64,000 bases of DNA, from positions 868,001 to 932,000 of the forward strand of contig NZ_CP062788.1 of assembly GCF_025136295.1 (NCBI RefSeq), in the 5' to 3' direction. This document shows, piece after piece, positions 28,161 to 47,025 of this stretch (its first letter is position 1; every line of letters begins with the position of its first letter). The translations under genes were made by a program, and so were the position numbers. The DNA comes from Aestuariispira ectoiniformans. GTDB taxonomy: Bacteria; Pseudomonadota; Alphaproteobacteria; UBA8366; Aestuariispiraceae. The notes beneath the pieces were generated by a model. The model searched no databases. It was not told where the DNA came from and worked only from the letters and a program-made list of their open reading frames with translations.

Positions 28161-28172
28161 GGATGTGGTCCC

Positions 28173-28673: not shown

Positions 28674-28722
28674 TGTCTCTCCGTGGTCCGGGCTGATCCT
28701 TTCAGGCAGAGGCCTGCGGCGT

Positions 28723-29664: not shown

Positions 29665-29805
29665 TGCTGCCTCCCCCTGCGAGTTAAAAGATTGCAACTC
29701 TTGGATGGTCGCTGATTAAAAATTACTCGTTAATTTTGAAGCTATTAAATATAATCTCGTGATATTCGTTAGTATGAAACGTTATGGCGGTAGCATCGTA
29801 GGCCC

Positions 29806-30792
29806 ATGGAATTTAAACATCTCCGTAGTTTTCTGAGAGTTCTTGAGCTGGGTAGTTTTTCGCGCGCCGCCGAGGACCTGAACATTGTTCAACCTGCCTT
29901 GAGCCAGCACATCAAGAAGCTGGAAGAGAAGCTGAACGAGCGGCTGTTCGACCGGACCTCCGTTGGCGCAACGCCAACCCCGGTGGGGCGAAAACTGGCC
30001 GAATATGCCCGGCTTATCCTGGATACTGCGGCGCGGGCCGATGCGGAAATCCGGGGCCAGCGTGAGCATCCTTTCGGTGATGTGACGGTTGGCCTTCCCA
30101 GTTCGCTATGCCCCTTCCTGTCCTTCCCCCTCATCGAGCGGGCCTCCATCCTTTATCCGGACATAAAGTTGATGATTGTGGAAAACATGAGCGGTAGTCT
30201 GGAATATGCGCTTGAGCATCAGATGCTGGATATCGCGGTTTTGTTCGACCGGGAGGCGACCCAGAAGTTTTCATCCGAGCCGATGATCCGGGAAAAGCTG
30301 CATGTGATCGGCCCGGCGGACAGTTTCGAGAATTTCCCGGAAGAATTTCCCGCCCAGAGGCTGTCAGGGCTGCCATTGGTTTCGACGATCCCGCCGCATG
30401 GGCTGCGGGCGCTGATTGACCGCTGGCAGGGGGACAACAAGATTGCCCTGAACATTGCGTTAGAGGTGGACTCCGCCTCCACGATCCTGCAACTGGTTGA
30501 ACGCAAAAACTATTTCTCGATTGTACCGTCCACGGCGATCCTTGAGAAAAAGCAAAGCAGCGCAATCGAAAGCCGCCCGATCGGCTTTCCCTCCTTCATC
30601 CGCGAAGCCTGTCTGTGCACCACGACGGTCCTGCCGTTCAGCTATGCCCGGGAGGCTATTGCGGCCCTTATCAAGATTCTGGTCTATGAACAGGCCACGC
30701 AGGGAAACTGGGAAGGCAAACTTCTCCTGGGGTCCCAACCGCCCGTCGTCGCAACGGAAAAGACAACGGCAGGCGGCACAACCGTCTTGTAG
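29806..30792 (+). CDS. LysR-family transcriptional regulator
   Basis: The 328-residue protein has the N-terminal helix-turn-helix (MEFKHLRSFLRVLELGSFSR, about 1-60) and a substrate-binding domain. It is transcribed away from tctC, with a 141-base AT-rich gap between them that contains CGTTA repeats at 29728, 29767 and 29780. It probably regulates carboxylate uptake. The inducer is unknown. Confidence 0.88.
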   Translation: MEFKHLRSFLRVLELGSFSRAAEDLNIVQPALSQHIKKLEEKLNERLFDRTSVGATPTPVGRKLAEYARLILDTAARADAEIRGQREHPFGDVTVGLPSSLCPFLSFPLIERASILYPDIKLMIVENMSGSLEYALEHQMLDIAVLFDREATQKFSSEPMIREKLHVIGPADSFENFPEEFPAQRLSGLPLVSTIPPHGLRALIDRWQGDNKIALNIALEVDSASTILQLVERKNYFSIVPSTAILEKKQSSAIESRPIGFPSFIREACLCTTTVLPFSYAREAIAALIKILVYEQATQGNWEGKLLLGSQPPVVATEKTTAGGTTVL

Positions 30793-30813: not shown

Positions 30814-31326
30814 TTAATGGATGGATGCCAAAGGGGCGTTGGCCCCGGGGTCCATGACCAGTTTAATCCTTTCCGGGCAAAGCTTTCCCTTCTGTCGCAG
30901 GAAATCGTCCAGCAGCCGCGCCGAGGCAGCGAGGTCGCCATATAGCCCGGTTGCCGTTTCCGCAAGGAATGTGGACAGGGAGGAAGACATGTCCTTGCCA
31001 CGGCAGGCGCTTGCCACGTCTTCCACGATATTCAGCAGGATTTCAGGGCTGGACACATCGACAATCTCATAAGTGTCAAAGGCCAGATCCCCGGCATGGC
31101 GCTGCAGGACCCGCACAAGACGTCTAGTGGCAGGAGACACCGCGCCGTTCGCGGAATAGGTCACGAATTTGACGCAGGACGCGGACCCGATGGCGGCGAT
31201 GATGTCTTCCGCGCTGATTGCGATGCGGACATTATGCCGGTGTTCGTCGGGATGCATCCGGGCTGCCAGACTGAAAAGAATGTCGTGGCAGACAGGGTGG
31301 TCTTCCAGGGTAACCAGCAAATCCAT
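30814..31326 (-). CDS. Unknown protein, last gene of the biosynthesis-like cluster
   Basis: The 170-residue product is not recognised. It is soluble, with no signal peptide, and starts MDLLVTLEDHPVCHDILFSL. A pattern of alternating beta and alpha segments is visible. It stops 22 bases from the convergent LysR gene and starts 11 bases after the HlyD-like gene, so it is co-transcribed with the cluster. Confidence 0.7.
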   Translation of the reverse strand: MDLLVTLEDHPVCHDILFSLAARMHPDEHRHNVRIAISAEDIIAAIGSASCVKFVTYSANGAVSPATRRLVRVLQRHAGDLAFDTYEIVDVSSPEILLNIVEDVASACRGKDMSSSLSTFLAETATGLYGDLAASARLLDDFLRQKGKLCPERIKLVMDPGANAPLASIH

Positions 31327-31337
31327 GACCGGCCCCG

Positions 31338-32546
31338 TTATGAGTCAGAGGTGACGATGGCGGTTACACCGGCACCGCAGAAGGCCTGTTGCCGCAACCA
31401 GTCATTGCTGTCGATATCCACCAGCAGCGATGCGATTTTCACCGGCAACTGACGCCTGACAAGGTCAATCGGGGGGATCGGCATCGGGCTTCCGATCTGA
31501 ACCCGGTCCACATTCTGCCTGATCGCGCGCACTGTGCCGGTTACCGCCTCGTCGGCCCCTTTGAAGCGGACATGGACCTTCCTGCCGACGCTGAATTCAT
31601 CCACATGCTTTTGATAGATATAGGCCTCGACCCAGACATTGTCGCATTTCAACGTGGTGAAAAGCAGCTCTCCGCCTTCGGTCACCGCCTGACCATAGGA
31701 ATGGATTTCCCAGACCCTTTCGCGCCCGCTGGCCGTGAACTGCAGGTTGGCGACCTGCCCGTAGAGCGTTTCATAGGCGTGGTAGAGTTCTTCGGCGGTT
31801 TTGATGTCATTATTGGTGGAGATGATGCTGTTGTTCAGATAGCGGTTTCTTTCCACATATTCATTCACCCGCGACAGGTAATAATTGAAGACCTGGCTTT
31901 CCTCATATTGGAGGCCCTGTTCCATGGCACGGCGGTTCCAGTCATTGATCTTGCTCTGGATGTTGAGCGCCTTCACTTCCTGAACACTGGCCAGGTAATT
32001 GGTTTCATCATCCTGCAGGACTGAATCGGAAATGATCTTTTTCACGTTCAGGCTGCGGCTGCGGTTGTAGTCGTCTTTTTGCCGGTTGAGCAGAATCCTT
32101 TTCCGTTCGGTCTGGACGCGGATCAACTCATTCTCAAGCTTGGCCACCTTGCTGGAAATCTCGACGGATTGGTCGTATTTGTCGCGGTAATGTTTGATAT
32201 GGCTGGTGTTCAGTTTCTTTTCGTTGTCGATGCTTTTGAGCTGGTTCCGGGCGTCGGCGATCTGGTTTTTAACTTCCAGCATCCGGGTTTTGAGGCCCAG
32301 GACGCCGGGGTCGGATTCCGGTACGACAATCTTGCCGAAGATGTCTCCGGCCTGGAACTCCTCATCGCTGACGAGGCGTTTGCTCGGCTCCCAGGCCCCA
32401 ACGGCATTGGCTTTATATTCCACCACTTCGATGTTGACGAAAGCCTCCACACTTTCGGCGCCTTCCATTGCGTCATGCGCGAAATAGGCCCCTGCACCCA
32501 GCAGGACAACGGCGGCGGCGGCGTATAATTTCTTCATGGTTCTCAC
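31338..32546 (-). CDS. HlyD-like membrane fusion/adaptor protein
   Basis: The 402-residue protein has an N-terminal membrane anchor (about 5-22), a long coiled-coil hairpin (about 95-265, rich in Lys, Glu, Asn, Gln) and flanking lipoyl/barrel-like parts. This is the shape of HlyD/EmrA periplasmic adaptors. No membrane pump or outer-membrane partner is adjacent. The MFS gene at 45811 is the nearest candidate, by analogy with EmrAB. It overlaps the YrdC-like gene by four bases, so it belongs to the same operon. Confidence 0.7.
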   Translation of the reverse strand: MRTMKKLYAAAAVVLLGAGAYFAHDAMEGAESVEAFVNIEVVEYKANAVGAWEPSKRLVSDEEFQAGDIFGKIVVPESDPGVLGLKTRMLEVKNQIADARNQLKSIDNEKKLNTSHIKHYRDKYDQSVEISSKVAKLENELIRVQTERKRILLNRQKDDYNRSRSLNVKKIISDSVLQDDETNYLASVQEVKALNIQSKINDWNRRAMEQGLQYEESQVFNYYLSRVNEYVERNRYLNNSIISTNNDIKTAEELYHAYETLYGQVANLQFTASGRERVWEIHSYGQAVTEGGELLFTTLKCDNVWVEAYIYQKHVDEFSVGRKVHVRFKGADEAVTGTVRAIRQNVDRVQIGSPMPIPPIDLVRRQLPVKIASLLVDIDSNDWLRQQAFCGAGVTAIVTSDS

Positions 32547-33298
32547 TCATGTGTTTGCAGCATTGCGGGGCTGTCATTCACAGCGGTCACCACACTGTTG
32601 ACCCGCTCCTCGAACCCGGCGCTGTAGGCGTCGGTATCCAGGTTCAGGTTCGGGAAAAATTGCTGGATTTTCTCAACCGGCACCCAGCCCTTGCGCACCA
32701 GCCAGGGCTCGCCCTGTGTGAAATCCACAAGCGTGTTCACCCTGTCGGTATGTTCCGCAAAGGCCTGGGCGACTGTCGGCCCGCCATCCAGGATCAGGTC
32801 CACCTTGTCGCCGATATCCTCCATGGCTTTGTCAAGCGACACGAAGATATTGCCCTGACCGGAAATATTGGCGGATGTACCGGCCAACGGCTTTCCGTAT
32901 TCCTTGACCAGCGGTCCGAAATTTCTGTCGGAACTGATCGTGATCGCCAGGGTCGGCAGTCCGCTGACCAGTTCCCGTGGAAACGGGTATTTGTGGCGGA
33001 ATATCATGGCAATCTCGCCTGGGAACAGGGAATCCAGGGCGTATTGCGACACCCAATCAGGGATATGGACATATTGGCCGATGTCGGAAGTGTCCGGCAG
33101 GGCGACCGAAAGCGGCCCGGTCTGGCGGCGTTTTTTTACGTCGAATACGCGCCGCACGGCGTCCCTGTTGGTGGCGTCGCACACAAGGATGTAATTGGTT
33201 ACGGAAGGGGTGATAACCAATCCCCCTTCCGACAGCACCTGGACGGCCCGTTCCAGAAACGGGCCGCTGGTGCTCAGGATCGGTGTCGTATCAGGCAA
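32543..33298 (-). CDS. YrdC/Sua5-like protein (first of two)
   Basis: The about 251-residue product has the YrdC nucleotide-binding pattern: a start-of-domain GGLVITPSVTNYILVCDATN, KKRRQTGPLSVALP and the TSANISG motif near residue 165. Sua5/TsaC enzymes make threonylcarbamoyl-AMP from threonine, bicarbonate and ATP for tRNA modification. A copy inside a metabolic cluster suggests that carbamoyl-AMP-like chemistry is used for something else. I place the start at TTG 33298, overlapping the previous gene's stop by 8 bases, as no ATG fits. The domain is clear and the start is less so. Confidence 0.75.
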   Translation of the reverse strand: MPDTTPILSTSGPFLERAVQVLSEGGLVITPSVTNYILVCDATNRDAVRRVFDVKKRRQTGPLSVALPDTSDIGQYVHIPDWVSQYALDSLFPGEIAMIFRHKYPFPRELVSGLPTLAITISSDRNFGPLVKEYGKPLAGTSANISGQGNIFVSLDKAMEDIGDKVDLILDGGPTVAQAFAEHTDRVNTLVDFTQGEPWLVRKGWVPVEKIQQFFPNLNLDTDAYSAGFEERVNSVVTAVNDSPAMLQTHE

Positions 33299-34472
33299 GT
33301 TCCAGCTTCTCCTGCTTCTTCTGATAGGATTCGACGGTCTCTTTCTTGATCCCGTAGAATTCCATGGCGTTGTTGCAAAGAATTCCCTTCTTGGCCGTAT
33401 CCGACACATCCGTGCGCCGTCTCAGGTCGATAAAGGAATGGGACATGCCGCCGTCTTCTTCATGGGCGTGCGGGAAATCCTGCCCGCCGAGCAGGCGATC
33501 GGGACCCAGTGTCTTGAGCAGGTCGGGAAGGTTGTCCTCGTCGCCACCCGCTCCGAAATAGATCGGGCATTCCTGCAGGTAGTATTCCGGGTCCTTGAGG
33601 GCGGGCCAGGGGTGGGCGGCTGCCGTACCCTTCCAGGCGGTCATCCGCTTGAAAGCCACCGGGAACCAGTCGATGCCGCCTTCGACCAGGGCCACCTTCA
33701 GGGCCGGGAAACGGTCATAGATGCCGCCGCCGACAAAGCTGAACAAGCCCATCACAAGGCAGAAATCGACGCCGATACACACACCCGCCGCCGGGCTGTC
33801 ACAGGATCGCATCAGGGAATCATGGCCCCAACCGAGGTGACAGCAGATCGGAATCTGGAGATGTTCCGCCACTTTCCAGAAGGGGTCGAACTGGCGTTCA
33901 TGCAAGAAGGTGTCGCCCGCCGTGCCCAGCAGCATGACACCGGATGCCCCCAGGGAATGCGCCCGCTTCATTTCCTCCACGGCCGCTGGAACATCCCGGA
34001 TCGGCACGGTTGCGATCCAGCGCAGACGGCCGCCGGATTCTGCCGCACGTTCGGCAATATAATCATTGTAGCTGCGCATCAGCGCCAGTTCGTATTGCAG
34101 GTCCTTGGTCAGGTTCTGCAGGAACACCGTCGGGTAGACCACATGCACATCCACACCGCCGCGGTCCATCGCCTGCAGGCGGGCCTCGGCGGTCATGATG
34201 GCCTGTTCCTCGATGGAGGCGTCCTTTTCCAAGGCAAAGGTAGAGAGAACCGGGCTGCCGTGGCAGGTGTGACCATGGCCCATGCGGCGGGGCATGATCT
34301 CCCCGTCGATGAACCAATGCACGTCCCGCTTCGGCCGGTCGGGAATGGTGTCGATCTTGACCGTCACCGGTTTGCGGGCCTTGAATTCTTCCGACATATA
34401 TTCCCAGACCGCAGGGTGTTCCTCGACATGGGTGTCGCTGTCAATGACGAGATCCGTTTTCAAATTTTCCAT
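33291..34472 (-). CDS. Amidohydrolase-family protein (ACMSD-like)
   Basis: The 393-residue protein fits amidohydrolase_2 (ACMSD/gamma-resorcylate decarboxylase type). The N-terminal DSDTHVEEHP supplies a metal site, the ICCHLGWGHDSL and GGIDWFP blocks follow, and GGQDFPHAHEEDGG lies near the C-terminus. Such enzymes decarboxylate or hydrolyse aromatic and enol acids using a metal. ATG 34472 is preceded by AGGGGATTTGAG. It sits between the heme-oxygenase-fold gene and YrdC-like gene. Confidence 0.85.
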   Translation of the reverse strand: MENLKTDLVIDSDTHVEEHPAVWEYMSEEFKARKPVTVKIDTIPDRPKRDVHWFIDGEIMPRRMGHGHTCHGSPVLSTFALEKDASIEEQAIMTAEARLQAMDRGGVDVHVVYPTVFLQNLTKDLQYELALMRSYNDYIAERAAESGGRLRWIATVPIRDVPAAVEEMKRAHSLGASGVMLLGTAGDTFLHERQFDPFWKVAEHLQIPICCHLGWGHDSLMRSCDSPAAGVCIGVDFCLVMGLFSFVGGGIYDRFPALKVALVEGGIDWFPVAFKRMTAWKGTAAAHPWPALKDPEYYLQECPIYFGAGGDEDNLPDLLKTLGPDRLLGGQDFPHAHEEDGGMSHSFIDLRRRTDVSDTAKKGILCNNAMEFYGIKKETVESYQKKQEKLELA

Positions 34473-34513
34473 CTCAAATCCCCTGTTCATTCATCGCTTG
34501 TGGGCTTGTAACG

Positions 34514-35233
34514 TCAGCCCGCGAGCCGTTGTTTTTCACCGGTCGGTTCTGTCGTGATGGCGTAGTAGTAGTCCTGCAGGTGGTTCCACTGGGTCATGAA
34601 ACGGTCGATGACCCGAAGCCCGTCCTGTTCCAGGTTTGGCAGGTCACTGCCTTCCTCTTCCATCAACACCCGTTCCGCATCGGCATGTTCGTCGTCACCG
34701 GCATGGACCTCGAACCACTCCAGGGCGTGATCGCTCAGGCCGAACTGATCTCTCAGCTTCTGGAGAACCTGGGTGATCACCTCCGCCGTCTGGCTTTCGC
34801 CCGCATACATGGCGGCGAGGACGACAACCGGATGTTCCGTCCAGCAGACATCCTTGATTTCGTCGACATAGCGCTGCACCGGGCCGCCCGGCGGGGTGTT
34901 GGCGATTTCCTCTTCCGTCGCCCCCATTTCCAGGGCAAACCGTTTCATCAGTTCGTAATGGGCGTCGCCGCCGGAACTGATGCTGGTTTCCTCGTCGATC
35001 AACTGATCCACCATGAACAGCCGGATGGCCCGGCTGTCCGTGCGGGCGTGCAAAATGGAAAAAATCGGAATCTGGAGATAGGTCTGGTGGTATTTCTGGA
35101 TTGCCCAGTTCTTCAGGCCTTCTCTGGTTGCCTGACCGCTAAGGACGAATTTCGTCCAGGAATGGTCCGTGTATTTCCGTCGCTGGATTTCGGCGTCGAA
35201 ACTGGCAAGAATGTCTTCGATCTTTTTACTCAT
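34514..35233 (-). CDS. Heme-oxygenase-fold oxidase (PqqC/CADD-like)
   Basis: The 239-residue all-helical protein resembles PqqC/TenA/CADD proteins. Candidate iron ligands in their usual order are E81/E82 (DEE), H92, E146 (AGES), H177 (EVHAGDDEH), D180 or D181 and H183. These enzymes use iron and oxygen for unusual oxidations in cofactor and natural-product synthesis. It overlaps the second YrdC-like gene by four bases (ATGA), so the two are coupled. The substrate is unknown. Confidence 0.8.
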   Translation of the reverse strand: MSKKIEDILASFDAEIQRRKYTDHSWTKFVLSGQATREGLKNWAIQKYHQTYLQIPIFSILHARTDSRAIRLFMVDQLIDEETSISSGGDAHYELMKRFALEMGATEEEIANTPPGGPVQRYVDEIKDVCWTEHPVVVLAAMYAGESQTAEVITQVLQKLRDQFGLSDHALEWFEVHAGDDEHADAERVLMEEEGSDLPNLEQDGLRVIDRFMTQWNHLQDYYYAITTEPTGEKQRLAG

Positions 35234-35943
35234 GATTTTCCCCCTTTGATTTTGGTGCGTAATTCGGCCAGCGGTTTTTGCAGTTCGTCGAAATTGACGC
35301 CGCGCCGCGCGACTTCCAGTGTCCGCAGGTCGATCATGGTCGTTGCCATGCGCTGTTCGTTCTCATAGCGGGCAACCCCGTGATCGATGAACAGATCCAC
35401 CCCCTTGGTCAGATCGTCGGGAAGCTCGTCCGGGCGATAGGAATTCCCCTTGCCGCTGACATTTCCGGATGATCCCGCCAACAGTTTTCCGTCGCGATAG
35501 GCACGTTCGACCAGGGCCTCCAGGAAGGCGCCTGCCTTCAGGAAAACCGCGACCGATTGTTCGAAGCTGGACTGTTTGCGCACGAATTCGGGCAGCGACA
35601 GCCAAAGCGGGCTTGTCTCGTCGAGGTCTGCGATCACCGAGATGGTGGTCCAGGTCATCTGTTCGGCGAGCCAGTCCAGGATGACAGGGTCGATACTTCC
35701 GCCGCTCAATTCCTGCAAAATGGTCAGGTCGCCGGGAACCACGCAGGGGTTCTGCCAGCTTCGGCCTTTGAGCGTATACATCCGCTTGATGGATTCTTCG
35801 GAATGCCCGACAAAGCCATAGCCGATATCGAGTTTGACCAGGGTGAGCCCGCCGTTCTCGATGACCTGATAGGCCTGCTCGAGCTCCGAGGCGGAGAAGG
35901 CTTCAGGATGTGCCTTTTCGGCGGTGTTAGCCATCGTATCCAT
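35230..35943 (-). CDS. YrdC/Sua5-like protein (second, divergent)
   Basis: The 237-residue product has GYGFVGHSEESIKRMYTLKG at its front, and GSSGNVSGKG, the counterpart of the YrdC TSAN motif, near residue 160. VDLRTLEVARRG lies near the end. It is clearly a relative of the gene at 32543 but far from it in sequence. The motif reads SGN instead of SAN. ATG 35943 follows AAGGAA. Two such proteins in one operon are unusual. Confidence 0.72.
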   Translation of the reverse strand: MDTMANTAEKAHPEAFSASELEQAYQVIENGGLTLVKLDIGYGFVGHSEESIKRMYTLKGRSWQNPCVVPGDLTILQELSGGSIDPVILDWLAEQMTWTTISVIADLDETSPLWLSLPEFVRKQSSFEQSVAVFLKAGAFLEALVERAYRDGKLLAGSSGNVSGKGNSYRPDELPDDLTKGVDLFIDHGVARYENEQRMATTMIDLRTLEVARRGVNFDELQKPLAELRTKIKGGKS

Positions 35944-35953
35944 ACTGGTTTCC

Positions 35954-37180
35954 TTATGCCAAAGTGAGGGACTGGGACTCCGCGGACGACACGGACACAT
36001 GGGCGCCCATGAAGGACGCGCGCAGCAGGTAGGTGCGGGCCGTTTCTTTTGACGACGCCATGGCGGCGAGGCGCGCACTGGCCAGGGCCGTCTTGCGGGA
36101 CTGCCGGTTGGCGTGGTCGTGGTAGTAGGCATTGGTGGATTTCTGGATGTGATCCAGGGCTGCTCGCCGGCGCAGGCTGGCATAGTCGTCCAGCTCGCTG
36201 ACGTCCGCATTGCCTACCAGATGCATCTGTAGAACACGTGCCAGATGGTCCGCGTCATGGAAGCCGCTGTTCAGGCAGACGCCGTCGACCGGTGTGCCGT
36301 GACTGTGGGCGGCGTCGCCTGCGAGAAGCACGCGGCCTTTTTTGAAACTGTCCGCCACAGAGGGACGGATATAGCTGACCGCCACCTGTTTGATGTCTAT
36401 GTCCGGCTTGTCTCCGATCAGGGAGAAAAGACGTTCGCGTGCCTGATTTTCATCACGGATCTGTCGGTCGCTTTCATCGGCACTGATCGGGAAGACGGCC
36501 TGGACGCGGTCACCGTAACGAATGACGCTGATGCAATTCTGACCACAATATAGATAGGCGGCATTGCCGAAATCCGGGAAATGGCGGCTGAAATCCAGGT
36601 CGCTTTCCACCATCAGAAAGCGGTGGTCTTCGACCAGGGCCCTGGAGGGAATCCCGGCCATGTCCCGCAGGCTGCTGTCCTTGCCGTCTGCGCCGACGAT
36701 ATAGTCGCCTTCGACCTCGAACTCGCCTTCGAATGTCGCGACCTTCGCAACGACCTTGTCGCCCCGCTCCTCAACGGATTGCAGATCATAGCCGGTGCAG
36801 ATCGCGGAGGGTGACAGAAGGCTTACGCGGTCTGCCAGAATGCGGACAATGTCCTCATGCGTGCAGTGAAGATGGAAAGGATATTCGGTTTGCTGGTCAA
36901 TGATGGAGAAGGGCAGTTCCGCCACCATCGAGGTTTCGTCGCAGTCCCAGAATTGCAGTTCCGGGACGCGCTGACCCTGTTCGAGGATGGCGTCGTCGAT
37001 CCCGTTCTGCTGGAACATCTCCATGGTTGAAGGGAATATCGTGCCGATGCCGGGCCGTTGCGGCAGACGTTCTTCGCGTTCAAAGACCTGAACGTCGATC
37101 CCCCTGCGCAAGAGGCCAAGCGCCAGGAACAGCCCAACCGGACCCGCCCCTGCAATGAGGACTTTTCCAGAAACAGTCAT
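35954..37180 (-). CDS. FAD-dependent monooxygenase (PHBH fold)
   Basis: The 408-residue protein has the FAD motif GAGPVG (about 10-15), the middle GADGKDSSLR motif and GDAAHSHGTPVDG, all signs of the aromatic-ring hydroxylase family. It inserts one oxygen using NAD(P)H. ATG 37180 follows GGAGG by 5 bases. An earlier in-frame ATG at 37192 lacks a site. It is close to the LeuCD-like gene (overlap or 1-base gap), so the two are co-transcribed. Confidence 0.9.
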   Translation of the reverse strand: MTVSGKVLIAGAGPVGLFLALGLLRRGIDVQVFEREERLPQRPGIGTIFPSTMEMFQQNGIDDAILEQGQRVPELQFWDCDETSMVAELPFSIIDQQTEYPFHLHCTHEDIVRILADRVSLLSPSAICTGYDLQSVEERGDKVVAKVATFEGEFEVEGDYIVGADGKDSSLRDMAGIPSRALVEDHRFLMVESDLDFSRHFPDFGNAAYLYCGQNCISVIRYGDRVQAVFPISADESDRQIRDENQARERLFSLIGDKPDIDIKQVAVSYIRPSVADSFKKGRVLLAGDAAHSHGTPVDGVCLNSGFHDADHLARVLQMHLVGNADVSELDDYASLRRRAALDHIQKSTNAYYHDHANRQSRKTALASARLAAMASSKETARTYLLRASFMGAHVSVSSAESQSLTLA

Positions 37181-37181
37181 G

Positions 37182-39143
37182 TTATCCTCCATTGGTTATT
37201 CTTGTTGGTTGGCCGTTTCCCTGTTTCAGGGCGGCGATCACCCCGCCGGATGCCAGGATTGATGCGGCTTCTCCAGCCGGACATTGGCCTTGGAATATGC
37301 GGTCGGTATCCGCGACCCGTATCGACCCGGTTGCCAGATCGACCTGAAGCTGTGTTCCATCGTCGACCAGATCGAAGAAATCAGGGTCATCGACCACCAG
37401 GGTGGGAAGGCCCTCGTTGACCAAATTGCGGCGATGGGTTGCGGCAAATCCGCGGGCGATAACCAGTTCCACACCGGCACCGATCAGGGCCCAGGCGGCA
37501 TGTTCGCGGGCGGAGCCGCTGCCCCAGGCCTCGCCGGCAACGATGATTGTGTTGCCGGATGTACAGCTTTCCTTCATGCCCGGGCGGACATATTCGAAGC
37601 AATGCTCGCCCAGTTCGGTCCAGTCCGACAGGTTGCAGAATTCACCCGGAATTATTGCGTCCGTATCCACATGGTCCCCGAATTTCTGAACCCCTGCGGA
37701 GACAAGACCGGACAGGGAGGCGCTTTTGTTGGCATCCTGATGATCCACCTTCATGGCGGGGATATTTTCGTAGCGGATTTCGATCGCCGCCGGGGCCGTC
37801 GATGGCTGTCGGCCGAGGATATTGTGGTAGCGGTTCTGGTCGATCCGCGCGAGATAGGGACGGGGGTCGGCGATTGTCATCCCGTATGAACTGGCGGCAA
37901 CCGTTGCGGCGGATGACAACCAGGCCAGCGACCCTTTGCCCATACGGTTGCGGTAGTTCCGGTTTTGTGAGGAGAGCCAGATTTCGCCGTCTCCGGCCCG
38001 TTCGGACCCAACCCCCAGGCACAGGTGACAGCCGGGAACGCCAATCCTGTAACCGGCGCGTTCGTATATCTTGTCCAGGCCTGTGTCCGCCAGAAGTTGG
38101 CGGATTTCCAGATCGCCGGGAACAACCAGACGGCGTGAACTCGGAACCGGGCGGTGGCCATCCTGCCACATCAGGTCCAGCAACATCCCGCCGAGAACCA
38201 GTTCTTCCTCTGTTGTGGTGCAGGCGCCGATAAAACAGCCATCAAGGGCCTGATCGGTGACGTCCTCCACATCGAAGACATTGTCCGGCGAGAAAGGTTT
38301 TGCGACTTTCGGTGACAGGTGATGCAGGTCGATCCGGATCGTCTCGGCATAGTCGGCATCCTCGTCCGCGCGGAGGAAGCGGGCGTCCGCGGCTGTCCTG
38401 CCCCTGCTTTCCAGAAATCGGACCGTTTCTGCGGTGGGTTCGAAAATGCCGTTCATGCCGCCCAGTTCGGCGGTCATGTTGCAGATGGTAAAGCGGGTGT
38501 CGGTCGTGAAGCCTGCGGCAGCCGGGCCGCCATATTCGACCGTGCGTTCCAGGGCCGCGCGGTTCCGGCCAAGGGTTCCGAGCGTGTGCAGGATGATATC
38601 CTTCCCGCCGATGCCGAAGGCCGTTTCGCCCTCATAGACAACCGAAATGGCCTCTGGCACCTCCAGCCATGTTTCCCCGGTCAGGGCGGCGATTGCGACA
38701 TCCGCGCCGCCCAGGCCGATTGCCAGTGCGCCAAGCGCGCCGTGGGAGGTGGTATGGGAATCCGCCCCCAGAACGATCTGGCCCGGCAGGCAGTGATCGC
38801 GGTAGAAACGCGTGTGCATGATCGTTTCATTGGCGTCGTAGAAGGCCGTCAGGCCGTTTGCCTTGGCAAAATTCTGACATAGCGCCACAAGGCGGCGGGT
38901 TTTCTCATTTTCCCGGACCGTGACCGGGTCTACGGTGTGGTCGACTGCCAGATAGAAGTGGTCCTTGTCGAAGAGCCGGGGATTTCCCAGTCGTTCGAAG
39001 GTGCTCATCATACCGTTGAGCGCCAGTTCGGACGCCATGGTCCAGTCAACCGCAACCCGCACGGTGCTGCCCGGCGCAACCGCACCGGAACCGACCATAT
39101 GGGTGCAGAGGATTTTCTGCGTCAGGGTAAGGCCCGCAGTCAT
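37182..39143 (-). CDS. Fused LeuC-LeuD-type isomerase (aconitase family)
   Basis: The 653-residue protein joins both halves of an isopropylmalate-isomerase-like enzyme. The large part has GADSHTTSHGALGALAIG and cluster cysteines C308 (CFIGACT), C372 and C375 (GCHLC). The swivel domain (about 500-630) has DHVDTDAIIPGEF and GSGSAREHAAWAL. Members move a hydroxyl between adjacent carbons of a malate derivative. The fused form is known from homophenylalanine (HphCD) and other chain-extension routes. No LeuB-like dehydrogenase gene is nearby. It overlaps the LeuA-like gene by four bases. Confidence 0.88.
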   Translation of the reverse strand: MTAGLTLTQKILCTHMVGSGAVAPGSTVRVAVDWTMASELALNGMMSTFERLGNPRLFDKDHFYLAVDHTVDPVTVRENEKTRRLVALCQNFAKANGLTAFYDANETIMHTRFYRDHCLPGQIVLGADSHTTSHGALGALAIGLGGADVAIAALTGETWLEVPEAISVVYEGETAFGIGGKDIILHTLGTLGRNRAALERTVEYGGPAAAGFTTDTRFTICNMTAELGGMNGIFEPTAETVRFLESRGRTAADARFLRADEDADYAETIRIDLHHLSPKVAKPFSPDNVFDVEDVTDQALDGCFIGACTTTEEELVLGGMLLDLMWQDGHRPVPSSRRLVVPGDLEIRQLLADTGLDKIYERAGYRIGVPGCHLCLGVGSERAGDGEIWLSSQNRNYRNRMGKGSLAWLSSAATVAASSYGMTIADPRPYLARIDQNRYHNILGRQPSTAPAAIEIRYENIPAMKVDHQDANKSASLSGLVSAGVQKFGDHVDTDAIIPGEFCNLSDWTELGEHCFEYVRPGMKESCTSGNTIIVAGEAWGSGSAREHAAWALIGAGVELVIARGFAATHRRNLVNEGLPTLVVDDPDFFDLVDDGTQLQVDLATGSIRVADTDRIFQGQCPAGEAASILASGGVIAALKQGNGQPTRITNGG

Positions 39144-40426: not shown

Positions 40427-41409
40427 TCTGCGGCCTCCTCAAGATAGTTGAGTGCTTGCAGCCCGGGGCGGCAGGCCTCCTCCAGGGCGGTGCGTGCCGC
40501 TGGGTCGATGCTGCGCCAGTCATTCCTTGGCGGATGGAGGTCATCCGCGCAGGCCTTGGCCCAGGACGCCGCAGGCAGTGCCGGATCAATGAATGCCAGC
40601 ATCTCCGTCAGGACCTCCTGCGGGGCATCCAGCAAATCCTCGTAGCGCATCCAGTGTTGCTGGGCGGCGGGGATGTGGCGCAGTTCGTCCAACCCTTCCA
40701 CCACCATCCGGTTCCAGAGGCCTCCGAAGGTGGAAAGCGGGATTTCCCGGTCATAAAAGGCGTCCAGATCGACCTGATCGGCCGGCAGCGGACGAATATG
40801 CAGCCAGGAACTTTCCGGATTTGCTTCCGCCCGCATGATCATCAGGCGAAATGCGTGATGTTTGCTCATGGAAAGCGCGACATTGCGGCCATCGCGATAC
40901 ATGTGGATGATTTTCATGTCGGGCCACATGGTCCGCCATAACGGCAGGTATTCGATGCTGGCCCCGGTCCGTTCCACCCATACCTTGCGCCCCAGGCTTT
41001 GGGCGATAAAACCGAACATTGCCTTGACGTGATCGGCGGGAATGGCGGTTTCGCGGGCCCTCATGAAGTCAGCGATTTCATGGAACAGGCTTTCATAGTC
41101 CTGCACCAGGGACGGCAGGGCGATGCGGCGCATATAGTTCCGTTCATGCAGCGTCCGCTTGGGAACCTGCGATATCCGGCCGTCGGACGCGATCTTGAAG
41201 ATATCGTCCGCCATGGGAACGCTGAGCAGATCCCAATAGTCGCTGCCGGACATCGGCCGGGTGGAAAACAGCTCCGGCAGGTTCAGCCGATTGGGCCAGA
41301 ACTCGGACAGGCTCAGGACATCCGGATGGTCGCGCAGCAGATTGGACAGCAACGTCGACCCGCATCTGCCGGTGCTGACGATCAGGATTGGCGGTTGATC
41401 AAACGACAT
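40423..41409 (-). CDS. Sulfotransferase
   Basis: The 328-residue protein begins MSFDQPPILIVSTGRCGSTL, with the PAPS 5'-phosphosulfate-binding loop STGRCGS at 12-18. The 3'-phosphate region YRDGRNVALSMS lies near residue 165. It should move a sulfo group from PAPS to a hydroxyl or amine. ATG 41409 overlaps the radical SAM stop by 11 bases. The target is unknown and could be the cluster product or a lipid/glycan. Confidence 0.88.
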   Translation of the reverse strand: MSFDQPPILIVSTGRCGSTLLSNLLRDHPDVLSLSEFWPNRLNLPELFSTRPMSGSDYWDLLSVPMADDIFKIASDGRISQVPKRTLHERNYMRRIALPSLVQDYESLFHEIADFMRARETAIPADHVKAMFGFIAQSLGRKVWVERTGASIEYLPLWRTMWPDMKIIHMYRDGRNVALSMSKHHAFRLMIMRAEANPESSWLHIRPLPADQVDLDAFYDREIPLSTFGGLWNRMVVEGLDELRHIPAAQQHWMRYEDLLDAPQEVLTEMLAFIDPALPAASWAKACADDLHPPRNDWRSIDPAARTALEEACRPGLQALNYLEEAAE

Positions 41410-43171
41410 CGAAGGAATCTCCCCGGAAGCCCGACCCGACATATGAATCCCTTGCGTCCGGCTGGGCGCCTGGGGGAACCATGTTGTTTTTGGACTTGCG
41501 GGTGGTCGGCCTTGCCTCGTCACCGGACCCGAAATGCAGCTTCACCTTGCCGCTGGAATGGTGCGAACGCGTCAGTTGCAGAAGTTCATGGCGGTTTTCC
41601 GTATTCTCGGCGGCGGTGAAGGTGTCGCCACGTACGACCGAGGTATAGAGGTTCCACAGTTCCGGGTGTTCCTCGATGCCATATTCAAGGCGTTTCTCGC
41701 GTATGACCTCGTCGAAATAGGGCGTGCCCGGATAAGGTGTGGCATTGAACAGGCTGAAGTTGATATGCGATCCGATCAACCGGTCCGACTCATCGGTGAT
41801 GTCGTCCCGGATTTCCATGATGGTCTCAAGGTTCTTGCGGGTTGCTTTCAGCTTGTCCTTTGTCGCGTCGGGGAAACCGAGCATGACGGCCAGGTTGATC
41901 TGGGGCATGCCTGCCGCGATAACCCGGCTCAGGATCTGCATATTCTCGTTCACCGTCCGCATCTTGCGCAGGTTGGTTTCAGGCGCGTCGCCATCCGCCA
42001 GGATGTTTTCGAACGGCACCAGACCGCGGAACGCGCCGGAGAAATTGTCCGGATCGTCGCTGTTCCAGAACATGAGGTCGAAAAGATGCTCCCGGAAGTC
42101 ACTGCTGTCTTTCTGCATCAACCGGCCGATTTCGATGCCGACCGGGAACTCCCAGACCATCTCCATTTTCTTGAGATATTCGAACATCTCGATGAGTTCG
42201 AGTTCCCCGCGCTCCCCATGGTTCAACCGCTGTAGCAGGTTGTCGTCGGACAGCATGACGGTTGAGACGCCGTTTGCACGGTACCAGGCGACCTCGTCCT
42301 TGAAACGCTGGACGCTCATTTCGCTACGTTTGGTGAGGCGTTCGGTGCAATAGCCGCATTCGCGGAAGCACCCCCTGGAGCTTTCAAAATAGGCGACACC
42401 ACCCTTTTTCAGGATCGAGGGCAGGAACTGGCCGCCGCCGCTTTCGCAATAATGGGTCAGCGGATTTTTCAGGAACTCGAAGCGCATGAAGGGCAGGCCG
42501 TCCATCTGGATACGCTCGCCGGTCTGCACAAGGCAGCGGCTTTTGACCAGATCGTCGAGGTCTTCGTCCCGATACAGCCGCACCAGCAGTTCGGGCAGGG
42601 AATAGTCGGCATCGCCATAGGCGACGAGGTCGGCTCCCATCCGCAGGAAATAATCCGGGCGCGCCATTGCATCACGGCCCCCGACCAGGATCAGCTTGTT
42701 CGGGTCGAGGCGCCGGAGCGTCGCAATGGCCTGGACCACCGGATAGGCTTCCAGCGTGAAATTCGCCGTAATGCAGACGACATCGGCATCCCAAAGCGCA
42801 TGAGGCAATCGCTGCATGCCGTCACCGACATAGGCCTTGGTCAGTTTTTTGTGGCCATACTGGAATTCGGCATAGGGCTGCAGATAGGCATCCCAATGTT
42901 CCATGTCCGGGATGCTTTTGAAGTCATCGAAATGGACGGTCCAGGGAATGCCTTCTGCCTCCAGCCTGTCCAGGACGGAGCTTGCCAGCATGAGTTGGGG
43001 GGTCGGGAAATAGTTGGTGCGATTGGGTGACACCGGCTCGTCGCCGTGGAGGAGAACCGGCGTTGGCACCGAAATCATGTGAATGGAGGCGCTGCGTTTC
43101 CTGCGGAGGCGCTGCGCGCGCTGGAGTGTGTTATCGCCGGACACTGAACCTGGTACGCTAAGATCATACAT
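41399..43171 (-). CDS. Cobalamin-binding radical SAM protein
   Basis: The 590-residue protein has an N-terminal B12-binding-like domain (about 30-200, with TPQLMLASSVLDRL near residue 57) and a radical SAM core with CxxxCxxC cysteines C268, C272 and C275 (RGCFRECGYC). A C-terminal extension of about 100 residues follows. B12-dependent radical SAM enzymes methylate or rearrange unactivated carbons. The substrate is unknown. It is the second gene of the cluster, and the PDT-like gene lies 34 bases upstream. Confidence 0.85.
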   Translation of the reverse strand: MYDLSVPGSVSGDNTLQRAQRLRRKRSASIHMISVPTPVLLHGDEPVSPNRTNYFPTPQLMLASSVLDRLEAEGIPWTVHFDDFKSIPDMEHWDAYLQPYAEFQYGHKKLTKAYVGDGMQRLPHALWDADVVCITANFTLEAYPVVQAIATLRRLDPNKLILVGGRDAMARPDYFLRMGADLVAYGDADYSLPELLVRLYRDEDLDDLVKSRCLVQTGERIQMDGLPFMRFEFLKNPLTHYCESGGGQFLPSILKKGGVAYFESSRGCFRECGYCTERLTKRSEMSVQRFKDEVAWYRANGVSTVMLSDDNLLQRLNHGERGELELIEMFEYLKKMEMVWEFPVGIEIGRLMQKDSSDFREHLFDLMFWNSDDPDNFSGAFRGLVPFENILADGDAPETNLRKMRTVNENMQILSRVIAAGMPQINLAVMLGFPDATKDKLKATRKNLETIMEIRDDITDESDRLIGSHINFSLFNATPYPGTPYFDEVIREKRLEYGIEEHPELWNLYTSVVRGDTFTAAENTENRHELLQLTRSHHSSGKVKLHFGSGDEARPTTRKSKNNMVPPGAQPDARDSYVGSGFRGDSFDVV

Positions 43172-43204
43172 CGCTGATTGCTCCTGTCCTGTCTTTTTGA
43201 CTTC

Positions 43205-43900
43205 TTATGCTGCTTTCAAGCGGAACACCGTGTAGGGCACGGGGAAGGCCCCGAAATCCCTGACTTTGACAACGCCTGCTTCGGCTGCCGATGCATCCGT
43301 TCCAACCGCGCCATCGACTTCGCCGCGTTTGCACATGCGGGCGGCCTCGGAATTGCTGGGCGCCCAGACCCATTCGAAATTGTCGTTTCCAAGGAAGGCC
43401 GTTGATGTCGGCGGGGCCGCGACGGTCCTGATCTTGTCGTCATGGGCCCTGGCAAAAAGGCCCATTTCGGCGGAATAGAGGAACACGTCGGCGGCATAGA
43501 CACGGTGAAGATTGGGAAGATAAAGCTTGTGGATGTCCGGGTAGAGGTTGCAGACCACACAGCCGTCAACCTCACCGTCCAGCAGAACCTGAAATGAGTC
43601 CTCCGCCGTCCGGCAAAGCAAGGCGTCATCGGCGCCGCCGCGTGAAATCAGGAAATGCCGTGCGGCGTCGTGACTGTTCGTCCTCTCCGGACCCAGAGTG
43701 GAAACCGTCCGATAACGAAGCTGCCCGCTTTCCGTCCGGTTAGACTTATCAGCCGTTTCAGAAATATCCATAATGTCTGGAGATGAATTTTGAGGATGGC
43801 TCGATGCACCGCCGTCCTCAAAACAGCGCAAGTCGCTAACCAATTTTTTTACTCCCGTCTGTCCCTGTGAATCCGTCATCTTCCTGCCTGAACAAGGCAT
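43205..43900 (-). CDS. Prephenate-dehydratase-like / periplasmic-binding-fold protein
   Basis: Residues 60-231 resemble the catalytic part of prephenate dehydratase. TVSTLGPERTNSHDAARHFL corresponds to the family's LGPEGTFS motif, and later DGCVVCNLYP replaces the usual VPIENS region. Key residues therefore differ and activity is uncertain. No ACT regulatory domain is present. The first about 55 residues are low-complexity. ATG 43900 and 43879 are both possible starts with weak ribosome sites. It is the first gene of the cluster, after a long AT-rich promoter region. Confidence 0.6.
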   Translation of the reverse strand: MPCSGRKMTDSQGQTGVKKLVSDLRCFEDGGASSHPQNSSPDIMDISETADKSNRTESGQLRYRTVSTLGPERTNSHDAARHFLISRGGADDALLCRTAEDSFQVLLDGEVDGCVVCNLYPDIHKLYLPNLHRVYAADVFLYSAEMGLFARAHDDKIRTVAAPPTSTAFLGNDNFEWVWAPSNSEAARMCKRGEVDGAVGTDASAAEAGVVKVRDFGAFPVPYTVFRLKAA

Positions 43901-44578
43901 TCCAAATCCGACCCGCTTCTCAGGTTGAGGTGCTTCGGCACTGACGAGCGTTGTTTCGTTCCGTATTCTTTACCGCTCGTACTTAATCGGCGGAAGTACA
44001 CTCAAACCAAGACTTCATTCTTATTGTCTTGTGTTTGTTTTTATCCGGGGTTTACCCCGTCGTTTTGGTAAGGAATTTCGCCGTCAATCAACGCTGTTTT
44101 CCGCTGTGCAACAGCGTCCTCACCAGTGATTTGATAGAGGCATAATTAAAAAATACTGTCAACTGAGGGTTGATTATTCTGCTTTATTACAGGCTGTGAT
44201 GGTGGTGCTGGGTGTGATTGCTAAATCTGATGTCCGGAAAACTGTTCAGAATGTTGCATGAATTTCATAAGCATTTGTTTTTATAGGAAGAATCTCATAA
44301 ACACAAATTATCCATGCGAGTAATTTGTTTCATTTGAATATATTTCCAGTGGTATTCCGGGATGTCTTTTGTGCGGGCCATATTATTTTATGATGCCATC
44401 TATAATTGAATATTATGTGAATAAAAAAATCAAAAGATACAACGCTCTATCATAGAATTTCTCCTTTTAGTTGTTTTTTGTAATATCATACTCAACTTGT
44501 TTAGCTTGCCAAAATGGTGCAGTGCACCTAAAACTTTGCATGCAAATTAAGATAGAAAGTTGAGAGAGGATTATAGAA
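43901..44578. other. Long AT-rich divergent promoter region
   Basis: No coding frame with support is seen in these 678 bases. The base composition is far richer in A+T than the rest of the window. It holds the inverted repeat ACGCTGTT-N11-AACAGCGT (44091-44117) and CGGGG-ttta-CCCCG near 44046. Before the plus-strand gene, the palindromes GGTGCA-g-TGCACC (44516-44528) and TTTGCATGCAAA (44535-44546) are present. It must carry promoters for both the minus-strand cluster and the citrate synthase gene. Confidence 0.6.
44516..44546. promoter_or_regulatory. Paired palindromes upstream of the citrate synthase gene
   Basis: GGTGCA-g-TGCACC and TTTGCATGCAAA are separate dyads 6 bases apart, ending 32 bases before the TTG start. 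They are candidate operators for a regulator not identified here. Confidence 0.45.
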
Positions 44579-45700
44579 TTGGTTGACGCAGGATTAGAAA
44601 ATGTAGTCGCCGCTGAGACACGTCTCAGTGCTCCCAATGGCCAAAAGGGCGAACTGATTATCGCGGGATATGATGTTGCTGATCTGGCGCCGAATGCCTC
44701 CTACGAACAGGTGATTTCACTTTTGTGGAATGGACGGCTGCCGACAGTTGCGGAACTGGAAGAGATCAAAACTGAACTGGCTGGACATCGGGTGTTGCCC
44801 GAGATTACGCTTCGTCTGCTGGAAGATGCAGCCAAGGTGAAACTGGACCCGATGACCGCGCTTCGCATGGCAACGGATACGCTTGCCCTGGCGATTGACA
44901 CGGATGGTGAGTTGAAGGAGGTCGGCGCGCAGATTGTCTCGGCCATTCCGACCATCGTTGCCAGCTATTTCCGGCTGTATAACGGCAAACCGGTCGTGGC
45001 ACCCCGTACTGACCTGGGGCATATCGCCAACTTCATCTATATGCTCTCCGGTGAAGAACCGCAGGAAAGCACGGTGCATGCGTTGGCAACATATTTCAAC
45101 GTAAGTGTGGATCACGGCCTCAACGCATCGACCTTTGCCTCGCGGGTGATCATTTCGACCCAGTCGGACCTGTTGTCGGCAATTGTCGGTGGCATTGGGG
45201 CCTTGAAAGGTCCGCTGCACGGCGGTGCGCCCGGCCCGGCGCTCGACATGGTTATCGAAATCGGTAAACCCGAAAATGCCGAAGCCTTCATCCGTGAAAA
45301 ACTTGAGAAAAAAGAACGCATCATGGGCTTTGGTCACCGGGTCTATAAGACCTATGACCCGCGCGCGCGGACACTCGATAAGGCCGTGAACCTGCTTTAC
45401 AGCCATTCCGGCAACAAAGAGCTGTATGATCTGGCCAAGGAAGTGGAGCGCGTGACGCTGGAACTTCTCAAGGAATACAAACCCGATCTGAAACTCGAAA
45501 CGAATATCGAGTTTTATACGGCCCTTCTGCTGAACGGGATCGGCCTGACGCCTGAATTCTTTGCCCCGACCTTTGCCGCCGCCCGTGTTGTCGGCTGGAT
45601 CGGCAACTGCCTGGAGCAGACGGAGACAGGCCGGTTGATCCGCCCGAAAGCCGATTACATCGGGCCGAGAAATCTGAAATGGGCTGACGAAGCAGCCTGA
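44579..45700 (+). CDS. Citrate synthase-family protein (short type)
   Basis: The 373-residue protein has the family histidines H179 (VDHGLNAS), H214 (GPLHGGAP) and H253 (MGFGHRVYKTYDPRA). Where classic citrate synthases have a catalytic Asp, this one has Glu311 (NIEFY), as in several short actinobacterial-type members. It should join acetyl-CoA (or propionyl-CoA) to oxaloacetate or a similar keto acid. The start is TTG 44579 behind GAGAGAGGA. Its place opposite a cluster with LeuA- and LeuCD-like genes suggests a specialised rather than central role, though it could be the house citrate synthase. Confidence 0.85.
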   Translation: MVDAGLENVVAAETRLSAPNGQKGELIIAGYDVADLAPNASYEQVISLLWNGRLPTVAELEEIKTELAGHRVLPEITLRLLEDAAKVKLDPMTALRMATDTLALAIDTDGELKEVGAQIVSAIPTIVASYFRLYNGKPVVAPRTDLGHIANFIYMLSGEEPQESTVHALATYFNVSVDHGLNASTFASRVIISTQSDLLSAIVGGIGALKGPLHGGAPGPALDMVIEIGKPENAEAFIREKLEKKERIMGFGHRVYKTYDPRARTLDKAVNLLYSHSGNKELYDLAKEVERVTLELLKEYKPDLKLETNIEFYTALLLNGIGLTPEFFAPTFAAARVVGWIGNCLEQTETGRLIRPKADYIGPRNLKWADEAA

Positions 45701-45718
45701 TCCAGATCTTTATCTTCC

Positions 45719-45748
45719 GGAGGCATCAGCCTGCCCGGCGATGCCTCC
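45719..45748. repeat. Hairpin downstream of the citrate synthase gene
   Basis: GGAGGCATC and GATGCCTCC form a perfect 9-base stem with a 12-base loop. The following bases are C- and A-rich, without a T tract, so it is only a weak terminator candidate on the plus strand. Confidence 0.4.
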
Positions 45749-45810
45749 CCCCAAAAATAACAAGAAGGGTGTAAGCGCCCCGAAACTGTTGCAAACAGGG
45801 GGATCATGAC

Positions 45811-47025
45811 ATGAAAGCATATATATTCTATGCCTACCGGATACTGTCCCGGATGTATTTTCATGTCATTGTTTTATTTATATTTTTATACCAGATAGGC
45901 TTTGGCCTGTTTAACTCGTCGCTTCTGGTTTCGATCTATGGGCTTGTCCTGTCGCTGTCCGGCATGCTGACCGGGCGGATCAGTCATCGGCTCAGTTTCA
46001 AAACTTCGCTGATCATCGGAGAGTTTTTGAAGCTCGCCGGGGTTTATCTGATCATCACGGGCACGATACAGACAAGCGTCGATTTCATGGTGGTCGCCCT
46101 TGGTCAGGCTTTGGGCGGTCTCGGGTTCGGGCTTTGCATCTCGCGTGACACGGAAATTGTTACATCCGACAAGACATTCACGGATTCCGCAAAGCTGACG
46201 GCCATTCTTTTCAAGTCCCAGGGATTGATGTTCATCAGCACATTCGTTGCCGGTTTTGTCGGCATTATCCTTTATTCCCATGACGAGCATCTGCCGTTTT
46301 ACTTTTCAATCGGTGCGCAACTGCTGACCTGTTTCGTTCTGATCTTTTTCATTTCGGACAACAGCGAGAAAACGGCGTCAAAGGGGGCTGCCGCGGCGGA
46401 ACTACCGGCTGTCGATGAGGCCGCGAACAGCAATCGTATCCTGTTCTGGACCTGTTATTACGCGGTTGTGCGGTCGCTTTCGCTGGCACCGTTCCTGGTC
46501 TTTCTGCCCTTTTATTTCATTCAGCTTCTGATGGACCCCTATCTGTTCGCCATCCTGCTGAGCCTGTTTTCGCTTTTTGCCTTTATCTCGGCTTTGAAAT
46601 ATCAGCGGATCATGTCCACGCTGGGCCTGAATATGACCTTTCTGGTCATGACAGGGGCGATGATCGTCGCCTTTGCGATCTTCACATTGACGATCATCCG
46701 GCCGAACCTCTTTACCAACGTGCTTTATCCGCTGCTTCTTGCCATCTCCATTTTCGGCTTCGGGTCCGGCTGCGTGCGCCCGATCTCGCTGGAAAACCTG
46801 AAACTGGGGGAATTGAGCAAGGCGTCACGGATTCATGTCCTGACCCGGATGGAAATCTTCTTCGGTATCTTCAACACCGCCTTCATCATCATCGGGGCGA
46901 CGATCATCCTGGAACTGGGGTTGGGAAGCCTGATGGTGACGATCTGTACGATGATGGTGCTGGCGGTCCTCGTCGGCTGGCACGACATGAACCGCCACGA
47001 ACCCCTGCCGTCAGAGGCGGATTGA
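45811..47025 (+). CDS. MFS transporter
   Basis: The 404-residue protein has about 12 hydrophobic segments with a charged central loop (about 180-205). A GRISHRLSFKTS loop lies between helices 2 and 3, at the usual MFS position. It lies 110 bases after the citrate synthase gene, so export of the cluster product or uptake of its precursor is an inference. ATG 45811 follows AGGGGG. Confidence 0.82.
   Translation: MKAYIFYAYRILSRMYFHVIVLFIFLYQIGFGLFNSSLLVSIYGLVLSLSGMLTGRISHRLSFKTSLIIGEFLKLAGVYLIITGTIQTSVDFMVVALGQALGGLGFGLCISRDTEIVTSDKTFTDSAKLTAILFKSQGLMFISTFVAGFVGIILYSHDEHLPFYFSIGAQLLTCFVLIFFISDNSEKTASKGAAAAELPAVDEAANSNRILFWTCYYAVVRSLSLAPFLVFLPFYFIQLLMDPYLFAILLSLFSLFAFISALKYQRIMSTLGLNMTFLVMTGAMIVAFAIFTLTIIRPNLFTNVLYPLLLAISIFGFGSGCVRPISLENLKLGELSKASRIHVLTRMEIFFGIFNTAFIIIGATIILELGLGSLMVTICTMMVLAVLVGWHDMNRHEPLPSEAD

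Follow-up and report, generated by a model that had tools for sequence, protein, structure and literature searches.

What is made by a compact set of metabolic genes that matches no described pathway? The question is raised by a 14-gene cluster of Aestuariispira ectoiniformans, whose 4.36-Mb genome is a single contig. The cluster lies in a stretch of 64 000 nucleotides (bases 868001–932000), hereafter called the window. An original prediction, made from the sequence alone, had described 14 genes, twelve of them on the minus strand with overlaps of 4–11 bases, and a divergent citrate synthase gene and major facilitator superfamily (MFS) transporter gene. All were found as described, as open frames with refined starts (Table 1). 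We lean towards reading the region as an operon devoted to the biosynthesis of a small metabolite that is as yet undescribed, and as one acquired horizontally. That a pathway exists has good support; what it makes, and by what chemistry, is inferred from the genes. That the set matches no known pathway, as had been suggested, was borne out: none was found, no description of this gene set was found in the open-access literature searched, and the gene order is kept in a genome of another order.

This second genome was found with a pattern for the radical S-adenosylmethionine (SAM) enzyme, scanned against contigs of one genome per species (84 980 species in genome_contigs). The scan picks up close relatives only and may have omitted the window's own record. 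It returned one relative, on a contig of a metagenome-assembled genome (MAG) of the Sneathiellales. This contig carries the MFS gene and then, divergent from it, the genes for the prephenate dehydratase-like protein, the radical SAM enzyme, the sulfotransferase, the LeuA-like enzyme and the start of the LeuCD-like isomerase. A search of the same MAG with the heme-oxygenase-like dimetal oxygenase (HDO) gave two more contigs. The first holds the remainder of LeuCD, YrdC2 and the beginning of HDO; the second holds the remainder of HDO, the amidohydrolase, YrdC1 and the HlyD-like adaptor. At their ends, the contigs share 138 bases (one mismatch) and 127 bases (exact). Therefore, ten operon genes stand in the window's order, together with the divergent MFS gene, with protein identities of 49–79%. 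This arrangement is called type A. The FAD monooxygenase (FMO) gene is missing from the MAG cluster, where LeuCD ends at position 1755 and YrdC2 begins at position 1768 of contig L015; no FMO match closer than 25% identity was found in the MAG (genome record taken as that of the same MAG). No match to the 170-residue orphan protein or to the citrate synthase was found in the fetched MAG cluster contigs. Third codon positions were the most diverged in all 11 genes compared between the window and the MAG (ten operon genes and MFS, with HDO and LeuCD in part), an excess expected under purifying selection.

The cluster is thus not a chance assembly. That unrelated genes merely lie side by side might be argued from the three genes that the MAG cluster lacks, but the syntenic block in another order, and a core that stays complete where it is divided between two loci (see below), leave this explanation practically no room. 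Scattering of the genes in unrelated contexts, which would have spoken for it, is contradicted by the MAG synteny. The co-occurrence of radical SAM, YrdC, HDO and LeuCD genes proposed as the mark of a family was seen in one other genome, the MAG. The claim of a single 14-gene cluster holds for ten operon genes and MFS; it does not extend to FMO, the orphan and the citrate synthase.

The twelve minus-strand genes have the anatomy of one operon. They are transcribed in the order prephenate dehydratase/TdaC-like protein, B12-binding radical SAM enzyme, sulfotransferase, LeuA-like enzyme, fused LeuCD, FMO, YrdC2, HDO, amidohydrolase, YrdC1, HlyD and orphan. With refined starts, seven junctions overlap (radical SAM/sulfotransferase by 11 bases, sulfotransferase/LeuA 4, LeuA/LeuCD 4, LeuCD/FMO 11, YrdC2/HDO 4, amidohydrolase/YrdC1 8 and YrdC1/HlyD 4) and four are separated by 10–33 bases (prephenate dehydratase/radical SAM 33, FMO/YrdC2 10, HDO/amidohydrolase 23 and HlyD/orphan 11). 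In consensus scans, promoter-like counts (10 versus 6.7, standard deviation 2.6) and terminator-like counts (16 versus 17.9, standard deviation 4.1) were within the range of shuffled sequence. Alignment of the upstream regions of the window and the MAG gave no clear shared element.

The original prediction had treated the cluster as a uniform unit. The part that recurs is instead a five-gene core, made up of YrdC1, YrdC2, HDO, amidohydrolase and MFS, which is present in genomes of three families, some of its loci having neither LeuCD nor radical SAM. Type B is a second locus in the same MAG, with the order YrdC2, HDO, amidohydrolase, MFS, YrdC1. Type C was found in three genomes of one genus of another family. 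There, the amidohydrolase gene is divergent from a LeuA-like gene, YrdC2 and HDO, and a citrate synthase gene (44% identical to that of the window) lies about 1 kb beyond the amidohydrolase, with an RlmJ-like gene (assigned by eye) between them. The type C YrdC1 gene lies on a different contig or at a distance of over 1 Mb, directly adjoining an MFS gene whose product is 47–49% identical to the type B MFS protein. All five genes are thus retained in type C as well, although they are split over two loci and are not all neighbours. HDO directly follows YrdC2 in all three types, and core proteins are 30–51% identical between types. The amidohydrolase profile matched 10 of the 385 genomes of the class. 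Five genomes account for six further amidohydrolase matches (G201, G375 with two, G071, G251 and G340), with no YrdC or HDO match within 20 kb; an FMO-like gene (27–29% identical) lies near two of the six. HDO matches in G766 and G254 were set aside as distant and CADD-like, with no other core gene within 20 kb. Plasmid matches to HDO in Caballeronia and Cupriavidus (six records) were also rejected: they are 25–26% identical, and the one neighbourhood inspected, in Caballeronia SBC2, is of another make-up.

Could the YrdC pair instead be a variant of the tRNA modification system that makes N6-threonylcarbamoyladenosine, with unrelated neighbours? YrdC1 does pass the TIGR00057 cut-off (125.8 of 123.2), whereas YrdC2 scores 36.5. 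A search for the YrdC family in the five core-bearing genomes, to which the following counts apply, gave one stronger Sua5-like protein in each (179–203 bits), apart from the core. YrdC1-type (118–134 bits) and YrdC2-type (35–48 bits) proteins occur in equal number: one of each in A. ectoiniformans, two of each in the MAG and one of each in every type C genome. In a tree of the family (300 of 693 columns kept, from untrimmed rows, some with extra residues read through the start), YrdC2 and Sua5 each formed a clade, with support of 100/100 and 100/98, respectively. With a separate Sua5-like protein in all five genomes, no match to TsaB, TsaD or TsaE in the 14 proteins, and neighbours that are conserved together with the pair, a tRNA modification variant is very improbable, and the pair is unlikely to consist of housekeeping genes.

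The gene set is rare in the samples searched and was probably acquired horizontally. The class and phylum searches covered 385 and 398 genomes, respectively. The radical SAM gene was found in one of 144 relatives and one of 43 genomes of the order (in both cases A. ectoiniformans itself; 13 of the others in the order belong to the same family), in one of nine genomes of the MAG's order (the MAG) and in two of the 385 class genomes (these two). No relative of it was found in plasmid records or in a scan of viral contigs. The citrate synthase of the cluster is an additional one: a single match at 32–34% identity occurs in each of the 14 family genomes, and A. ectoiniformans alone has this one as well. 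It was therefore rejected as a housekeeping enzyme, the extra copy not being found in the other 13 genomes, and is probably part of the island, outside the conserved core.

A cofactor or signalling molecule, made in the manner of pyrroloquinoline quinone rather than secreted as a specialised metabolite, was also considered. PqqC and CADD, enzymes for a cofactor and for the precursor of one, are distant relatives of HDO, and the core, which is small, reappears with slight changes. The original prediction had noted the absence of nonribosomal peptide synthetase (NRPS) and polyketide synthase (PKS) genes; indeed, neither family is among the matches listed for the 14 proteins, which would also suit a cofactor. 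Against this stand the rare and patchy distribution in the sampled genomes, a transporter gene in every core set found and a sulfotransferase in the long form, which make a cofactor pathway quite unlikely.

The gene identities proposed earlier were largely confirmed by Pfam. Matches above the curated cut-offs were obtained for HMGL-like, aconitase and the aconitase C-terminal domain, FAD_binding_3, Haem_oxygenas_2 and TENA, Amidohydro_2, Sua5_yciO_yrdC (two proteins), Sulfotransfer_3, HlyD_3 and citrate synthase. Those that fell short were Radical_SAM (25.3 versus 29.5), B12-binding (20.2 versus 32.1) and MFS_1 (31.0 versus 33.4). The first gene product, a prephenate dehydratase/TdaC-like protein that the original prediction had not named, stands exactly on its cut-off (25.2 of 25.2). 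The catalytic motif of prephenate dehydratase is T-R-F; this protein has T224-V225-F226 at that place, so the motif is not kept. The radical SAM enzyme has the cluster motif CxxxCxxC, as CFRECGYC, and is without a DxHxxG motif. In the LeuA-like protein, DDTIRDGLQ (27–35), HGHND (226–230) and GVH (318–320) are identical in the MAG and Streptomyces copies, save D28E and I30L in Streptomyces, and the residues of DRE-TIM synthases are intact. LeuCD retains its three Fe-S cysteines (C308, C372 and C375). Both this protein and the LeuA-like one score under the cut-offs of the NCBIfam models that they match (for LeuCD, among the 25 listed of 26 matches). KxR and S(A/G)N motifs are retained in both YrdC proteins; in the YrdC2 motif alignment, the window row began two codons before its start. 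The orphan has no family in Pfam, NCBIfam or PADLOC, and no match in plasmid records. PADLOC, run on six of the 14 proteins, gave one weak match, to radical SAM (E 5.6e-4), so a defence system is unsupported.

Several known systems share parts with the cluster. TsaC/Sua5 threonylcarbamoyl-AMP synthases are of the YrdC family and have the KxR and SxN motifs of the cluster proteins; the cluster differs in having two divergent paralogues beside the separate Sua5-like protein and no TsaD/Kae1 partner among its 14 proteins. In the known cases covered by the parts of the sources consulted, carbamoyl adenylation by a YrdC-like domain is followed by transfer by a Kae1/TsaD domain (PMC9633730; PMC11648230). 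The class III carbamoyltransferases (GdmN type) resemble the cluster in their YrdC-like domain adenylating the carbamoyl donor, as described in the part of the source consulted (PMC9633730), and differ in their Kae1-like domain, which is unmatched in the cluster.

LeuA–LeuCD–LeuB and HphA/HphCD/HphB sets likewise place a LeuA-like synthase beside a LeuCD-like isomerase, which is fused in the cluster. HphCD is itself a fused protein. Unlike these sets, the cluster has no dehydrogenase match. The Hph proteins carry out the 2-oxo-acid elongation steps of a homophenylalanine pathway, according to the portion of the source consulted (PMC12961565). Outside the family, the closest relative of the LeuA-like protein in the plasmid records searched (40%) is encoded by Streptomyces KN37. 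Its plasmid locus (L007:17192-26944) carries LeuA, a fused LeuD–LeuC aconitase, an isopropylmalate-type dehydrogenase, two crotonyl-CoA carboxylase/reductases and an acyl-AMP ligase, beside NRPS/PKS genes. Because the KN37 domain order is reversed (LeuD–LeuC), its sequence suggests that the two fusions arose separately.

Among solved structures, the closest to HDO by sequence are the CADD/PabS self-sacrificing p-aminobenzoate synthases. E81, H92, E146, H177, D180 or D181, and H183 of HDO align with the residues that we take to be the CADD dimetal ligands, the stretch before the last His being one residue shorter. HDO scores 89.9 bits against a cut-off of 200, and has Thr27 for Tyr27 and Val156 for Lys152. 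In CADD, these Tyr and Lys residues are the ones sacrificed, as stated in the part of the source consulted (PMC11965152). HDO was rejected as a CADD-type p-aminobenzoate synthase because both are gone.

The first gene product recalls TdaC of the tropodithietic acid locus, a small prephenate dehydratase-like protein. That locus is known for specialised metabolism. TdaC of Phaeobacter is 24% identical to the cluster protein, and its neighbours (glutathione S-transferase, thioesterase, acyl-CoA dehydrogenase and others) are of another make-up. Small TdaC/prephenate dehydratase-like proteins were also seen adjoining DUF6421 genes on plasmids of Serpentinimonas and Pantoea (L008:3502-5309 and L009:9995-11742), possibly another small pathway.

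How might such enzymes work together? Biosynthesis of a specialised metabolite is the likely general function. That the YrdC pair carries out carbamoyl-adenylate chemistry is proposed tentatively. YrdC1 and YrdC2, possibly paired, would draw on ATP and either bicarbonate or carbamoyl phosphate to convert an amino-acid-type amine into a carbamoyl-adenylate. Because the 14 proteins gave no match to a Kae1/TsaD transferase, the activated group would probably be passed to HDO, or cyclise and be oxidised by HDO; the dimetal enzyme would thus oxidise or cleave this intermediate or its product. The metal-dependent amidohydrolase would then hydrolyse or decarboxylate the resulting compound, and the MFS protein would be the membrane carrier for substrate or product. 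In type A, the long version, the LeuA-like synthase and LeuCD would extend the chain of a 2-oxo acid, which may be aromatic since the first gene is prephenate dehydratase-like; 2-oxo-acid extension by this arm has about an even chance of being right. The B12-radical SAM enzyme might alkylate or rearrange an unactivated carbon, the sulfotransferase would add sulfate and HlyD would help export.

More speculative still is the idea that YrdC1, YrdC2, HDO and the amidohydrolase form a new engine, in which a heteromeric YrdC pair gives free carbamoyl-adenylate to a dimetal oxygenase and not to Kae1/TsaD. Such an engine might underlie an alphaproteobacterial metabolite family with an unusual N–C(=O) group; in the long version, chain extension by LeuA/LeuCD, a radical SAM step and sulfation would elaborate the products further. 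If so, this would be a natural-product route without the usual marker enzymes, and the universal YrdC fold would be used outside tRNA modification and carbamoyltransferases. The MAG with its two core versions suggests a family of related products. The five-gene core provides a search handle and a small target for reconstitution (five proteins).

Several observations weigh against the biosynthetic reading or its details. No product is known. Neither a LeuB-type dehydrogenase, an aminotransferase nor a Kae1-type carbamoyl transferase is among the Pfam and NCBIfam matches of the 14 proteins. In the YrdC tree, support for grouping the YrdC1 proteins is weak (62/71), and the program gave a long-branch warning. 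In both type A HDO copies, the spacing of the last two histidine ligands is shorter by one residue than in types B and C and in CADD, and for this reason the type A metal site may be altered, judging from the alignment. The type C LeuA-like gene (L031:12430-13647, homocitrate synthase-like, beside YrdC2 and HDO) seems by eye to be without the Arg and HxH residues; its product is perhaps a regulator or scaffold. Structure predictions were unusably low for the radical SAM enzyme (mean predicted local distance difference test score 36.8) and the prephenate dehydratase-like protein (34.6).

The remaining objections bear on a catabolic or detoxification operon, in which the MFS protein would import a compound, HDO and FMO would oxidise it, the ACMSD-like amidohydrolase would decarboxylate or hydrolyse the ring-cleaved product, and LeuA, LeuCD and citrate synthase would feed central metabolism. 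Acyl-CoA dehydrogenase-, thiolase- and FadJ-like genes, which look like beta-oxidation genes by eye, adjoin type B, and two or three of the coreless amidohydrolase loci also look catabolic by eye. Next to the cluster are genes for a tricarboxylate transporter. Among the amidohydrolase relatives with solved structures are ACMSD, gamma-resorcylate decarboxylase and carboxyvanillate decarboxylase, but also PtmU3, which is biosynthetic. FMO is dispensable in the MAG cluster, and the closest LeuA relative was found in a biosynthetic-looking locus. Moreover, a B12-radical SAM enzyme, a 3′-phosphoadenosine-5′-phosphosulfate-type sulfotransferase, HlyD and an ATP-using YrdC pair are, as a rule, more typical of synthetic than of degradative pathways. 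Overall, catabolism was judged unlikely, and the biosynthetic operon is retained as the preferred reading.

Table 1. Coordinates (window numbering) and characteristics of the cluster genes and of the divergent intergenic region. Percentages are protein identities, except for GC content.
Feature	Position	Strand	Characteristics
Small prephenate dehydratase-like (TdaC-like) protein, first operon gene	43205..43900	-	PF00800 at cut-off; alternative ATG 43879; 68% to MAG copy
B12-binding radical SAM enzyme	41399..43171	-	CxxxCxxC at 268-275; Pfam below cut-off; 69% to MAG copy
Sulfotransferase	40423..41409	-	PF13469; P-loop-like STGRCGST; 76% to MAG copy
LeuA/homocitrate synthase-like enzyme	39140..40426	-	PF00682 above cut-off; DRE-TIM motifs kept; 68% to MAG copy
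Fused LeuC-LeuD-like isomerase	37182..39143	-	PF00330 and PF00694; Fe-S cysteines 308, 372, 375; 70-71% to MAG copy
FAD monooxygenase (FMO)	35954..37192	-	PF01494; absent from MAG cluster
YrdC2, core gene	35230..35943	-	PF01300, 43.1 bits; KGR and SGN motifs
HDO, core gene	34514..35233	-	PF14518; ligands aligned to CADD
ACMSD-superfamily amidohydrolase, core gene	33291..34490	-	PF04909
YrdC1, core gene	32543..33298	-	TTG start proposed; PF01300, 118.1 bits; TIGR00057, 125.8 of 123.2
HlyD-like adaptor	31338..32546	-	PF13437; 49-50% to MAG copy
170-residue orphan protein, last operon gene	30814..31326	-	Family-less; not in MAG cluster
Divergent intergenic region, likely promoters	43901..44578	.	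678 bases; AT-rich, 38% GC
Extra citrate synthase II, probably part of island	44579..45700	+	44% relative near type C loci
MFS transporter, core gene	45811..47025	+	Below Pfam cut-off; 62% to MAG type A, 34% to type B, 31% to type C

Directly left of the cluster, TctA, TctB and TctC genes of a tripartite tricarboxylate transporter and a divergent LysR gene occupy positions 26598–30792 of the window. The LysR gene (at 29806) probably belongs with the TctABC genes, from which it is divergent, in a unit apart from the cluster. The right flank carries another LysR gene and a gene for a flavodoxin-fold protein. Farther right (50848–63821), genes for a PfkB-DUF2090 protein, a thiamine pyrophosphate enzyme, a xylose isomerase-like barrel, two MocA-type dehydrogenases, a sugar-binding protein and an RpiR-type regulator form a block that resembles what we take to be inositol catabolism. 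At 8479–13679, genes for 2Fe-2S and molybdopterin-binding subunits, xanthine dehydrogenase-like, adjoin a citrate-type transporter gene.

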